A stretch of 64,000 nucleotides of DNA. Source: Thioalkalivibrio sp. ALJ24. Lineage in GTDB: Bacteria > Pseudomonadota > Gammaproteobacteria > Ectothiorhodospirales > Ectothiorhodospiraceae. The notes beneath the pieces are model-generated. The model was not told where the DNA came from. It did not search any database and saw nothing but the letters and a program-made list of their open reading frames with translations. The first letter of the stretch is position 1; each line of letters starts with the position of its first letter. Location of the stretch: contig NZ_KB898724.1 in NCBI RefSeq assembly GCF_000377785.1, forward strand, positions 186,001-250,000, read 5' to 3'. Shown here in pieces: positions 4,064-57,029 of this stretch. A program made the translations under genes and the position numbers.

Positions 4064-5425
4064 TCAGGCCGGCGTGGCAAGGCCGAGCATGGCCACGGCC
4101 AGCGAGAAATAGATGGCGATGCCGCCAAGGTCGGCGATGGCGGTGACCAGCGGTACGCTGGCGGTCGCGGGGTCGAGCTTGAGGCTGCGCAGGATCACCG
4201 GCAGCAGCATGCCGACCATGCTGGCGAAGGCCACGATCAGGGTCATGGCGACCGCCACCAGCACCGCGATCTCCATGCCGCCGCGCCAAAGGCCCAGCAG
4301 CGATACCGCGATCCCCATGCTGACGCCGATGCCGGTGGCCACGCCCAGTTCCTTGGCCCACAGGCGCAGCCAGTCGCGCGTGGTGACCTCGCCGATGGCC
4401 ATCGCGCGCACCATCAGGGTGGAGCTCTGCGCCCCGGCGTTACCGCCGGAGTCGATGATCAGCGGCAGGAAGAACACCAGCACCGCCACCGCCTCGATGG
4501 CCTCCTCGTACTGCGAGATCATCAGCGCGCCGAGGGTGTTGAACGCCACCAGGCCCAGCAGCCAGCCGATCCGCTTGCGATACAGCAGGAACGGGCTGGC
4601 CTGACGCGGGCTCAGCGGGAGGTTGCCCACCGAACCCAGCTTGTGGAAATCCTCGGTGGACTCGGCCTCGATCACGTCCATGACGTCGTCCACCGTGACC
4701 ACGCCCAGCAGCTCACCGTTGTCGCCCACCACCGGCAGGCTTTCGATGTCGTAGTGCTGGATGCGCCGTGCGGCCTCGACGCGGTCGGCGTCCACCTGCA
4801 CCGTAAAGGGCGACTCGTCGTCGATCAGGCTGCGCACCGGGCTGTCGGGCTCGGCGCGCAGGAACCGGCGGATGGGGATGGCGGCCAGCAGGGTGCGGTC
4901 GTCGTCGACCACGAAGATCACGTTGCTGGAGTGCTCGTCGCCGGTACGACGGATGTGAGCCAGCGCGCGCTTGAGCGTCCAGTCCGGGTCCACCGCGACC
5001 ACCGACGGCGACATCACCCGCCCGACCGAGGCCTCGGGGTAGTTGAGCTGCTTCAGGGCACGGCGGATGGCGCGGAACGGCAGCAGGCGCAGGTACTCGC
5101 GCAGGCGTTCGGCGTCCAGGGTCTGCAGCAGCGCGGTGAGGTCGTCGGTCTCCATCTCGGAGAGCAGAAAGCGCGCGTCCTCGCGCGACGACGCGCCCAG
5201 CAGCTGCTGCTGGAAGGGGATGTCGAGATAGGCGAAGACATCGGCCTTGCGTCCGGGGTGCAGCCGGTTGAAGACCGGGGCGATCTCCTCGGCGGGGAGT
5301 TCCATCAGAGCATGCGCGATGTCCTGCACGCGCATGTAGTCCAGCAGCTCGTCGAGGCCGGCGCGGTCGTCCAGCCGGACCAGTTCGCGCAGCTCGATGA
5401 TGGACTGTTCGAGGTTGTGTTCCAT
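4064..5425 (-). CDS. mgtE: MgtE-family magnesium transporter, upstream paralogue
   Basis: A 453-residue homologue of the next gene, with the same N domain, paired CBS domains (GRVMSPSVVAVD; VTVDDVMDVIEAE) and C-terminal membrane channel. The filter-region motif reads GGNAGAQSS where the paralogue has GGNTGSQA, and the Asp of IADLGGIAIYF is kept. The CBS pair would sense cytoplasmic Mg2+ and gate the pore, as established for MgtE. A ribosome site (GGAGCAGG) precedes the ATG. A leader of about 235 nt separates the start from the best promoter, leaving room for post-initiation control. Confidence 0.94.
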   Translation of the reverse strand: MEHNLEQSIIELRELVRLDDRAGLDELLDYMRVQDIAHALMELPAEEIAPVFNRLHPGRKADVFAYLDIPFQQQLLGASSREDARFLLSEMETDDLTALLQTLDAERLREYLRLLPFRAIRRALKQLNYPEASVGRVMSPSVVAVDPDWTLKRALAHIRRTGDEHSSNVIFVVDDDRTLLAAIPIRRFLRAEPDSPVRSLIDDESPFTVQVDADRVEAARRIQHYDIESLPVVGDNGELLGVVTVDDVMDVIEAESTEDFHKLGSVGNLPLSPRQASPFLLYRKRIGWLLGLVAFNTLGALMISQYEEAIEAVAVLVFFLPLIIDSGGNAGAQSSTLMVRAMAIGEVTTRDWLRLWAKELGVATGIGVSMGIAVSLLGLWRGGMEIAVLVAVAMTLIVAFASMVGMLLPVILRSLKLDPATASVPLVTAIADLGGIAIYFSLAVAMLGLATPA

Positions 5426-5592
5426 GTCCTGCTCCCGGCGGTCGATGGCGGTTCACCGGCCCGCGGCGCGGTGACGACGAGGGACCGTCGTATTCGGATT
5501 TCCAGGACGGGGCAGATCGCAGGATCCGGCCGCCTCCCGGCGCTCTGGTGTCATGAGGCCCGGCGGCAGCGGCGGAAAAGGGTGCGCAGTGC

Positions 5593-5640
5593 TTACGGCC
5601 GGGCGACGATAGATCGACAGCGTGTTCGGCGTTTCATCAT
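5593..5640 (-). CDS. Candidate leader peptide upstream of the mgtE pair (15 aa)
   Basis: Within the mgtE leader, ATGATG at 5640 is preceded by AAGGG at good spacing and opens a 15-codon frame, MMKRRTRCRSIVARP, ending in TAA. Six of 15 residues are Arg or Lys. Short leader peptides control Mg2+ transporter genes in enterobacteria (mgtL, mgtP, corL), so position and size are suggestive. The sequence is unlike those peptides, and a frame this short with a fair ribosome site can arise by chance. Confidence 0.3.
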   Translation of the reverse strand: MMKRRTRCRSIVARP

Positions 5641-5665
5641 GCGATCCCTTGTGGAAAGTCCCTTT

Positions 5666-5693
5666 ATTCTAACGGATCCTCAGTGTCACTCAA
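5666..5693 (-). promoter_or_regulatory. Candidate sigma70 promoter for the mgtE operon
   Basis: On the minus strand TTGAGT (5693-5688) and TAGAAT (5671-5666) are 16 bp apart, close to the sigma70 consensus and unusually AT-rich for this sequence. Transcription would begin near 5659, giving a leader of about 235 nt before mgtE. Confidence 0.5.
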
Positions 5694-5761
5694 GTGCTTG
5701 CGTGCGATGCTTGCACCGGTTTGAGCACTCGCGCGAACCTTCCGGCCTGCGCCCGGTCGCT

Positions 5762-48311: not shown

Positions 48312-48343
48312 GAGTCTCGAACTCTGAAGCAAGCGTTATAACA

Positions 48344-48389
48344 ACGGGCGAAAGCCCGTTTTGCGGGGCCCTCCGGGGCCCCGTTTTTT
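48344..48389 (+). terminator. Tandem intrinsic terminators of the porin gene
   Basis: A first stem (acgggc-gaaa-gcccgt, 48344-48359) followed by TTTT is backed by a second GC stem (48364-48383) with six T. A third hairpin at 48396-48414 lies just after. Stacked terminators fit a strongly expressed gene. Confidence 0.88.
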
Positions 48390-48506
48390 GTGGAGGGCCG
48401 CGCATTGCGCGGCCTTTCGCGTTTGGGTATGAGGTTGGGGTGATGACACCCGAATGGCTACGATGGACCGGTCGAAGAGTTCTACCGAACGAAAGAGGGG
48501 GGCAAC

Positions 48507-48779
48507 ATGAAGATCGAAGTGGAGCATCGGCCGGCAAGCGAACGGCTGGAGGCACTGGGTGTGTTCGACTGGCCGGTGTGGGAGAAGGAGGCGTCCAGTT
48601 TCCCCTGGCATTACGACGAGACCGAGGTGTGCTACATCCTCGAGGGCCAGGTAACGGTGACCCCGGAAGGTGGCGAGCCGGTGACGGTGGGCGAGGGGGA
48701 TCTGGTCACGTTCCCGGCGGGCATGGACTGCACCTGGGAGATCCACCGCGATATCCGCAAGCACTACCGTTTCGAATAG
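48507..48779 (+). CDS. Small cupin-domain protein (cupin_3/EutQ-like)
   Basis: A 90-residue single-domain cupin. Motif 1 is HYDETEVCYILEGQVTVTPEGG and motif 2 GEGDLVTFPAGMDCTWEI, the pattern of the DUF861/cupin_3 group, with His in motif 1 and reduced metal ligands in motif 2. Its ligand is unknown. GGGGGG-type purine tract and proper spacing precede the ATG. It lies between the porin terminators and the AT-rich gap. Confidence 0.88.
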   Translation: MKIEVEHRPASERLEALGVFDWPVWEKEASSFPWHYDETEVCYILEGQVTVTPEGGEPVTVGEGDLVTFPAGMDCTWEIHRDIRKHYRFE

Positions 48780-48888
48780 GCTCCGGCACGGGCATTCACC
48801 CGGGAAACGGATACAGGAACGGCCCTGGCCGCGAAGATCGGGGCCCGCAGGCAAAGGGGGGTGCGTGCGAGCACGCGGTGGGGGTGTC

Positions 48889-48956
48889 AAAAAAGAGAAA
48901 AGACCGAACAACATCCCTGTTGAACGGCCTTTCGGCAGGAACTTCCCTGTTCCTGA
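48889..48956 (-). ncRNA. Candidate GGA-motif small RNA (Csr/Rsm sponge-like)
   Basis: The predicted minus-strand transcript of about 68 nt forms two hairpins that present GGGA in or near the loops: AGGAAC-AGGGAA-GTTCCT and CAACA-GGGA-TGTTG. The second is extended by CCG/CGG pairs and followed by TCTTTTCTCTTTTTT, giving a terminator. AGGA/GGGA loops are what CsrA/RsmA-family proteins bind in CsrB- and RsmY/Z-type RNAs. A sigma70-like promoter and a CRP-like palindrome lie directly upstream. No protein frame fits the segment. The RNA is short and has only three GGA motifs, so a different role is possible. Confidence 0.45.
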
Positions 48957-48962
48957 TTGGGG

Positions 48963-48991
48963 ATATTATCCGTGCCTCCGGGGTGAAACAA
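48963..48991 (-). promoter_or_regulatory. Candidate promoter of the small RNA
   Basis: On the minus strand TTGTTT (48991-48986) and TAATAT (48968-48963) are 17 bp apart in an AT-rich island; the start would be near 48956. Confidence 0.45.
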
Positions 48992-49007
48992 TATTGATTG
49001 TGTGTTT

Positions 49008-49025
49008 TTGTGATTAATACCACAA
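49008..49025. promoter_or_regulatory. CRP-like palindrome
   Basis: TTGTGATTAATACCACAA contains TGTGA-N6-CCACA, matching nine of ten CRP half-site bases. Its centre is about 60 bp upstream of the predicted small-RNA start, the usual class I activator position. Confidence 0.45.
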
Positions 49026-49159
49026 AAAATGGATTGGAATCAGTCTAAATGTTCGGCAAAATCAACGAGGATAGGGATAAAAAGACCGAATAAACAGAAG
49101 TCTAGGAGGTCTTGCGCCGCGCCTCGGGTGGAAGTCTTGCGCACACGGGGCGGGGTGGT

Positions 49160-51052: not shown

Positions 51053-51245
51053 GGACGCGCCCCGCGGGCGCCGTCGTGACCTTCGACCTTGAACCAGCGG
51101 TTCAGGTGGGAGAAGTCTCCGAATCTTTAGGCTTTCCGCTCGGCGGCGGACCTGCACAGCGAAACGGAAGAACTCGGTCCCTGGGTGTTGCATTAAGGCT
51201 CAAGGGTACCACCCGGCCACGTTCGAACGCCGCAGCGACGCGTCC
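51053..51245 (-). ncRNA. ssrS: 6S RNA
   Basis: The gap between zapA and 5-FCL, where 6S RNA sits in many gammaproteobacteria, folds as expected on the minus strand. The ends GGACGCG and CGCGTCC close the outer stem. CCCTTGAGCC, GAGCGGAAAGCCTAAAG and CCACCTGAACCGCTGGTTCAAGG correspond in order to E. coli 6S segments CCCCTGAGCC, CGAGAAGCCTTAAAA and TCACCTTGAACC-type hairpin. Length is about 193 nt, against 184 in E. coli. 6S RNA mimics an open promoter and holds sigma70 RNA polymerase in stationary phase. Exact ends are estimated. Confidence 0.9.
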
Positions 51246-56677: not shown

Positions 56678-56786
56678 TCCATGGGCCCGATCCCATGTAC
56701 CCGGCGTGAACCGGGGCATTGGGTTCCGGCGGCTGATCGCCTATAATCGGAAACACGTCAGCGGAGCCGAATCTCCGCACATCGTC

Positions 56787-56990
56787 CTGGAAGAGTTCTG
56801 CCGCGCTGCGCCTCGGGCGCGCGCCGCAGACGCCGAAGGCGCAACATCCGCCCGGAATCGCTCAGGCTTCAGGACCGGGATGATGAAACGACGGACTCTG
56901 GAGAGCGGCCGGCAGACGGCCCACCGAAGGGGGCGATCGCCCGGGTCCACAGGACCGCGGGGCGCGCAAACTCTCAGGTTTCAGGACAGA
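56787..56990 (+). promoter_or_regulatory. Tandem glycine riboswitch upstream of gcvT
   Basis: Two glycine aptamers follow each other. The first runs about 56787-56880 (GGAAGAG, GACGCCGAAGGCGC, CGCTCAGGCTTCAGGACCGGGA) and the second about 56896-56990 (GGAGAG, CCCACCGAAGGGGGC, AAACTCTCAGGTTTCAGGACAGAG). These are the conserved cores of the family, joined by a short linker. An intrinsic terminator begins immediately after, so control is by transcription termination. The controlled genes are gcvT-gcvH-gcvPA-tpx-gcvPB, which degrade glycine, so activation by glycine is expected. Confidence 0.95.
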
Positions 56991-57029
56991 GGGGCGGTCG
57001 GCAGTAATCCTGCCGGCCGCCCTTTTTTT
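56991..57029 (+). terminator. Riboswitch-controlled terminator (expression platform)
   Basis: A 13-bp stem (56992-57004 with 57010-57022, one G-U) with a taatc loop is followed by seven T. Its 5' arm adjoins the P1 3' strand of aptamer 2, and its 3' arm is also perfectly complementary to 56905-56915 inside aptamer 2, so alternative pairings can decide whether it forms. Confidence 0.92.

Follow-up and report, generated by a model that had tools for sequence, protein, structure and literature searches.

The locus described here occupies the minus strand of the window, i.e., the whole 64-kb stretch of Thioalkalivibrio DNA that was analysed, and the coordinates of its features are collected in Table 1. 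It is flanked on the left by the genes for a porin and a small cupin, which are plus-strand genes convergent with it, and on the right by a glutathione S-transferase-like gene and an EVE-domain gene, both on the minus strand. Read along the minus strand from 49024 to 48889, a CRP/Vfr-like palindrome is followed by a promoter, two hairpins and a U-rich tract, in the order and at the place given for them by the original prediction. The same-strand frames of at least 80 codons between the predicted RNA and the cupin gene are mechanical ones, antisense to the cupin gene. One of these (48914..48336, minus strand, 192 codons) begins with an ATG of the hairpin 2 loop and crosses the terminator; at such G+C content an antisense frame is often open. 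These frames were taken as spurious, and the RNA is read as free-standing; a leader of a downstream gene was rejected, the cupin gene on that side being convergent. Elsewhere in the window, a 6S RNA (51056-51241, minus strand), an mgtE RNA motif (5418-5718, minus strand) and a tandem glycine riboswitch (56778-56999, plus strand) score above their Rfam gathering scores.

Table 1. Features of the small RNA locus and its convergent neighbor, in window coordinates.
Feature	Position	Strand	Remarks
CRP/Vfr-like palindrome TGTGGTATTAATCACA	49024..49009	-	9/10 consensus bases
Outer arms of the CRP-like palindrome	49005-49028	-	TTTTTGTG...CACAAAAA
-35-like hexamer TTGTTT, poor	48991..48986	-	15-bp spacer to the -10 hexamer
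-10 hexamer GATAAT	48970..48965	-	5/6 match
Predicted small RNA, ~70 nt	48958..48889	-	start inferred from the -10 hexamer
Hairpin 1, CAGGAAC-AGGGAA-GUUCCUG	48955..48936	-	hexaloop AGGGAA, of the CsrA-type ANGGAN
Hairpin 2 (terminator stem)	48933..48898	-	loop GGGA, ACAGGGAUGU in the apical part
U-rich terminator tract CTCTTTTTT / CUCUUUUUU	48897..48889	-	3' of hairpin 2
Small cupin (Cupin_3) gene	48507..48779	+	convergent neighbor outside the RNA unit; synteny anchor

The strict sigma-70 promoter scan and the terminator scan listed nothing at the site, and the promoter is therefore described as combining a good -10 with a weak -35 element. Of the sigma70-like promoter first proposed, the -10 hexamer holds, while the -35 hexamer, at a spacer of 15 bp, is poor; the proposed U-rich terminator is present as hairpin 2 followed by its U-rich tract. 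By eye, many other copies described below have a TGCTAG-type hexamer at roughly the position, with respect to the RNA, that GATAAT occupies here. The predicted RNA folds at -28 kcal/mol (z -3.1), and none of 200 shuffled sequences folds as well. The two GGGA-exposing hairpins that had been predicted were found with loops AGGGAA and GGGA, the motif of hairpin 1 reading ACAGGGAAGU, and their ANGGAN loops lie 30 nt apart. When a hairpin pair was defined as two ANGGAN-hexaloop hairpins with at least four closing pairs each and 16-50 nt apart, it occurred once in the 64-kb window, at the RNA itself, compared to a mean of 0.017 in 60 dinucleotide-shuffled windows (0 of 60 when the U tract was required as well). 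This definition was chosen post hoc, after the site had been seen, and is strict enough that only 4 of the 28 copies of the family would satisfy it. On the plus strand, nothing but TTTC comes after the terminator hairpin.

The distribution of the RNA was assessed in several steps. A DNA similarity search found the stretch in 2 of 58 genomes, its own and that of T. halophilus HL17 (G007; 87%). The HL17 copy keeps both hairpins, with the stem of hairpin 2 changed on both arms and one base inserted; hairpin 1 has lost its two outer pairs. At the place expected for its glutathione S-transferase gene, HL17 carries by eye a PIN-domain-like toxin gene with a partner (L006, 2115-2962), in a gap that consists partly of N. 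A covariance model from these two sequences only (R1) indicated 10 places at E <= 0.05, spread over 9 of the 47 genomes. On inspection, six genomes (including own and HL17) show the same anatomy, four of them with divergent copies at E-values of 8e-7 to 8e-4, and the places in the remaining three (G031, G002 C7 and G009 C20) were rejected as plain terminators.

A second, 8-sequence model (R2), in which own and HL17 were again included, gave 68 places in 24 of the 30 Thioalkalivibrio genomes at E <= 0.1. At least 28 copies in 16 of the 30 genomes were accepted by hand (E <= 2.8e-7), this first look having scored 150 of several hundred candidates per genome, such that further copies may be missed. 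The other 40 rows were rejected (best E 3.9e-7); 11 of them were inspected by eye and are without a hairpin 1 of this type and without the upstream repeat described below. The genomes carry 1-3 copies each, in several cases spaced a few hundred to ~1500 bases from one another; T. versutus AL2 (G009), for example, has two (G009:C13:5201-5267 and 5694-5759).

For a third model (R3), the own and HL17 copies were left out and the remaining 26 accepted copies used, which had themselves been gathered with R2 and hence with a model containing both. R3 matches the window at 48891-48956 with 37 bits (E 1.7e-7), its best place there, compared to 21 bits for the next-best place and 46.9 bits for the HL17 copy. 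The score is by itself not compelling, since a strong plain terminator at another place in the own genome obtains 32.6 bits; it is the shared loops and their spacing that carry the argument for family membership. A search with the exact spaced pattern gave 8 places in 8 of the 30 genomes against 13 in the backward control, and is no evidence by itself.

Across the class, R3 gave 12 places in 10 of 369 genomes at E <= 0.001. With at most 14 candidates scored per genome this search missed the own copy, and is therefore uninformative on the spread of the family. Eleven of the 12 places were inspected and set aside as plain terminators, except those in G089, G229 and perhaps G133. The stretches in G089 and G229 (L139 and L141, ~1460-1557) contain 5-6 GGA motifs in ~100 nt with a GGA-looped terminator at the end, and a comparison with Rfam up to E 1 gave no match to Csr/Rsm; they may represent undescribed CsrB-like RNAs, from another family within the class. 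The place in G133 (L143, G133:C130:13161-13219; R3 E 5.9e-4) has AGGGA and AUGGAC loops with a poor U tail, and resembles the family.

The cupin gene served to compare positions. Among 25 cupin loci listed (~520 bases each, by eye; rows L025 and L026 are cut by contig ends or mis-offset), only those of own and HL17 have the RNA next to the gene, and the other 26 copies are far from it in 13 of the 14 genomes, those with a cupin match.

At gathering score the window has no match to the Csr/Rsm families of Rfam, and around the site there is none up to E 10. The seven Rfam matches obtained around the site up to E 10 are led by gltS (25.3 bits; gathering score 47.5), and gltS and the other families were rejected, the best being below gathering and on the opposite strand. 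One copy of a relative (L085) gave a chance-level match to RsmW (17.2 bits; gathering score 52; E 0.54). In 4 of the 14 copies searched, the family ftsZ-DE (RF02985) was matched on the opposite strand with 26-37 bits, the gathering score being 72.2 (L085, 2017-2089, minus; L049, 1478-1545, plus; L078, 1779-1841, plus; L037, 1520-1586, minus). This identity was likewise rejected, as the matches are below gathering, on the wrong strand and absent from those of the window. Read backwards, the ftsZ-DE stem would hold an AGGGA loop, so this family may describe a terminator of a similar kind from the wrong strand.

Conservation of the loops and compensatory change in the stems had been named in advance as a refuting test of the original prediction, and both were found. 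In all 28 accepted copies both hairpins carry ANGGAN at the tip, with a spacing of 28-31 nt. For each of the two hairpins, at least three pairs close the hexamer directly in 22 of the 28 copies, and in the other six a mismatch, a bulge or a larger loop lies between the hexamer and the stem. An alignment of 23 distinct rows other than the window's own, which had been fitted to the structure, has standard pairs in 93.6% of its pair cells and double changes in 9 of 20 pairs. Its covariation score is 0.318, compared to a mean of 0.196 in shuffled alignments (0 of 500 as high) and to at most 0.143 in slid controls. Further pair types in the fitted alignment are not above chance (19, compared to 19.6 in shuffles), and for the three innermost pairs of hairpin 2 the share of paired cells drops to 69.6%. 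In an unfitted MAFFT alignment of eight rows, the covariation score is 0.293 against 0.190 (again 0 of 500 as high), and the number of pairs changed on both sides is equalled by 22 of 500 shuffles.

These loops resemble the recognition element of CsrA. The available part of one account (PMC7652899) gives RUACARGGAUGU as the SELEX consensus of CsrA with a preference for an ANGGAN hexaloop, and states that a CsrA dimer bridges two sites 10-63 nt apart; the core of that consensus is present as ACAGGGAUGU at the tip of hairpin 2, and the family spacing of 28-31 nt is within the bridging range. The CsrA domain (PF02599) is matched three times in the own genome, and one of these matches is split in two. 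One protein exceeds the cut-off of the CsrA equivalog (114.7 bits; cut-off 73), and a second CsrA-like protein falls just short of it (72.3 bits). The third CsrA-like ORF (L003, G000:C9:127767-128024; ~100 aa) shows two partial domains, its CsrA domain being split or interrupted. Taken together, the locus is probably a minimal CsrA-antagonist RNA gene, with a likely cAMP-CRP input here and in HL17 and a LytTR/AlgR-type site in 14 related genomes.

The putative CRP input was examined at the level of the site, its position and the proteins encoded. The 16-mer is the sole match of the window to TGTGAN6TCACA with no more than one mismatch, and is contained in a larger minus-strand palindrome, TTTTTGTGGTATTAATCACAAAAA. 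Promoters activated by CRP in the class I manner have the site centered near -61.5. Here the center is 58.5-61.5 bp upstream of the predicted start at 48958-48955, where the original prediction had placed a near-consensus palindrome at about 60 bp, and this position would suit a promoter of that class. The poor TTGTTT hexamer likewise suggests an activator-dependent promoter. The own genome codes for a CRP equivalog (316.8 bits; NCBIfam cut-off 266), the nearest PDB entry of which is Vfr and the gene of which is flanked by trpC and an OsmC-family gene, as well as for a class III adenylate/guanylate cyclase domain (PF00211, 85 bits).

An alternative is that the RNA is a real CsrA sponge which CRP does not control, in which case the palindrome would be due to chance or would serve another CRP/FNR protein, and the promoter would be constitutive or subject to an unseen activator. 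The CRP-like site is present only in the own genome and HL17; the box bases are identical in the two, which is weak evidence of conservation since just one other genome is involved and the whole upstream stretch is similar there. A second CRP/FNR-family protein is also encoded in the own genome, and 0.51 such sites are expected by chance per 64 kb at the composition of the window. At the local AT-rich composition, however, the expectation is 0.004 per 140 bp, and the position near -60, the weak -35 element and the presence of both the CRP equivalog and the cyclase domain also speak for CRP. We consider it unlikely that CRP has no control of the RNA, while giving that reading some weight.

What the original prediction did not foresee is that the RNA belongs to a genus-wide family whose other members have a different upstream element. 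All 26 other copies, and neither of the two CRP-type copies, contain a CCG...CCG direct repeat with a pitch of 21 bp, at positions -81..-83 and -60..-62 counted from where the model match begins and of the type TACCGTTnA...CGACCGTTnA. With ACCG required, the pitch of 21 occurs in 21 of the 26 copies and no other pitch is observed. A genus-wide search with the repeat pattern (three mismatches) gave 33 places, 21 at accepted copies and 12 elsewhere, with none in the own genome or HL17; the backward control gave 8. Since these are the very sequences from which the motif was derived, the evidence consists of its fixed place and pitch. Double repeats of this kind (two mismatches) also occur away from the RNA copies, at G025:C1:697308, G001:C2:418163 and G020:C14:4925 (L096, L115 and L108), and may mark another target of a LytTR regulator.

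In the available part of a review covering Pseudomonas aeruginosa (PMC4064291), LytTR sites are imperfect direct repeats ~12 bp apart, the AlgR core is CCGTTCGTC, and known AlgR sites need not have this spacing. The pitch and the sequence of the present repeat fit regulators of the LytTR type, as far as can be judged from the DNA. Exactly one LytTR match is present in each of the 16 RNA-bearing genomes, and one in 3 of the 14 others (some of which are incomplete). The own LytTR gene adjoins a gene taken by eye for a LytS/AlgZ-type kinase, for which an NCBIfam match was not found. Among the 25 of 84 NCBIfam matches listed, the own LytTR protein is below the cut-off throughout (best BtsR, 105.9 against 246), and since no cut-off is reached the designation AlgR-like is only a lead. 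The LytTR protein tree groups own with HL17 (100/99) and seems to place the pair as sister of the remaining RNA-bearing genomes, albeit not firmly (87/79). The cupin tree unites the 13 other genomes in a clade (97/100), and own and HL17 come together in only 36% of bootstrap trees.

A base-pairing small RNA of the Hfq type would also be small and end in a terminator with a U tail. We judge it improbable that the RNA acts in this way and not as a CsrA antagonist, as the GGA hexamers are among the most constant letters of the family and nearly all residues lie inside the two hairpins, leaving little single-stranded seed. Least probable of all, and very much so, is that the locus is nothing but a cupin terminator, perhaps bidirectional, with a chance hairpin, or else part of a minus-strand frame: it does lie 3' of the cupin gene, several model matches elsewhere are plain terminators and the 192-codon frame is open, but the ANGGAN of both hairpins is kept in every accepted copy, the cupin gene is remote from the 26 other copies (in the 13 of 14 genomes with a match), which have a conserved promoter element of their own, the plus-strand hairpin has only TTTC after it, and the frame crosses the terminator and is mostly antisense to a Pfam-supported gene.

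CsrA antagonists act as the switch of a post-transcriptional system of global reach, and according to the available part of PMC7652899 are controlled by Gac/BarA-UvrY in many gammaproteobacteria. By eye, no GacA-type palindrome is evident upstream of the RNA. The GacA/UvrY equivalog (NF007018, cut-off 280 bits) is reached in none of the 30 genomes among the matches listed; one of 14 controls is above this cut-off and no Pseudomonas is named there, such that it may be strict for GacA. The control in question is presumably E. coli, UvrY being an E. coli protein. Among the same matches, the best of the own genome has 56.6 bits and covers the receiver domain only, full-length matches of 116-127 bits occur in the RNA-bearing genomes HL17, G011 and G018, and the top scorers (G012, G017, G019, G027 and G028; 188-201 bits) are all genomes without the RNA. 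The present RNAs probably constitute a minimal Csr/Rsm-like sponge family, perhaps outside Gac control.

Like CsrB/CsrC and RsmX/Y/Z, the window RNA is free-standing and intrinsically terminated, contains several GGA loops and is accompanied by CsrA in the genome. The known RNAs titrate CsrA, and the same is presumed for the window RNA. Unlike them, it has two sites in ~70 nt, the second of which is in the terminator loop. With regard to the input, the available part of a study on Yersinia pseudotuberculosis (PMC3523269) reports that Crp raises csrC and lowers csrB, an effect judged to be indirect, and that specific binding of Crp to csrB or csrC promoter fragments was not detected. The csrC of Yersinia thus shares with the window RNA a link between the CRP protein and the level of a Csr RNA, whereas the window RNA has a near-consensus CRP site at class I distance. 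In P. aeruginosa, AlgZR affects rsmY/rsmZ, with directness left open in the available part of that source (PMC4064291). The AlgR core and the repeats of many relatives' copies have CCGTTC in common; AlgR sites need not be repeats 12 bp apart, whereas the repeat of the relatives is at a fixed distance in 26 of 26 non-CRP copies. As an effect of CRP on Csr RNAs has precedent, the novelty consists of the minimal design, the genus-wide family, the second site in the terminator and the clade-dependent input. No report of such an RNA in the Thioalkalivibrio group was found in the literature covered, outside of which are most subscription journals. The available part of a transcriptome paper on the group mentions csrA once and names other small RNAs.

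For the working of the locus, we infer the following course from the arrangement of its elements. cAMP-CRP, through the Vfr-type orthologue, would bind the class-I-like site ~60 bp upstream and recruit RNA polymerase to the promoter with the weak -35 element. The ~70-nt transcript would start near 48958 on the minus strand and end at hairpin 2. As its ANGGAN loops are 30 nt apart, a single CsrA dimer could span the two and would in this manner be kept from mRNAs. The stoichiometry would be one CsrA dimer per RNA if the sites are bridged and two if they are not; since a two-site RNA holds at most 1-2 dimers, strong expression would be needed for sponge action. A wider scenario, which we offer only tentatively, is that Gac control of the Csr system was lost or never present in Thioalkalivibrio, that in neighboring clades two-site sponges became wired to two unrelated inputs, directly to cAMP-CRP in the lineage of the window or to an AlgR-type LytTR regulator elsewhere, and that CsrA may feed back on termination of the RNA that antagonizes it.

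If this is true, the family would be an example from nature of the same sponge operating under exchanged inputs, in which the input of the global CsrA switch would be replaceable while its output stays the same. The family occurs in sulfur-oxidizing autotrophs without a clear GacA, and so small a sponge would be a good model for single-dimer capture.
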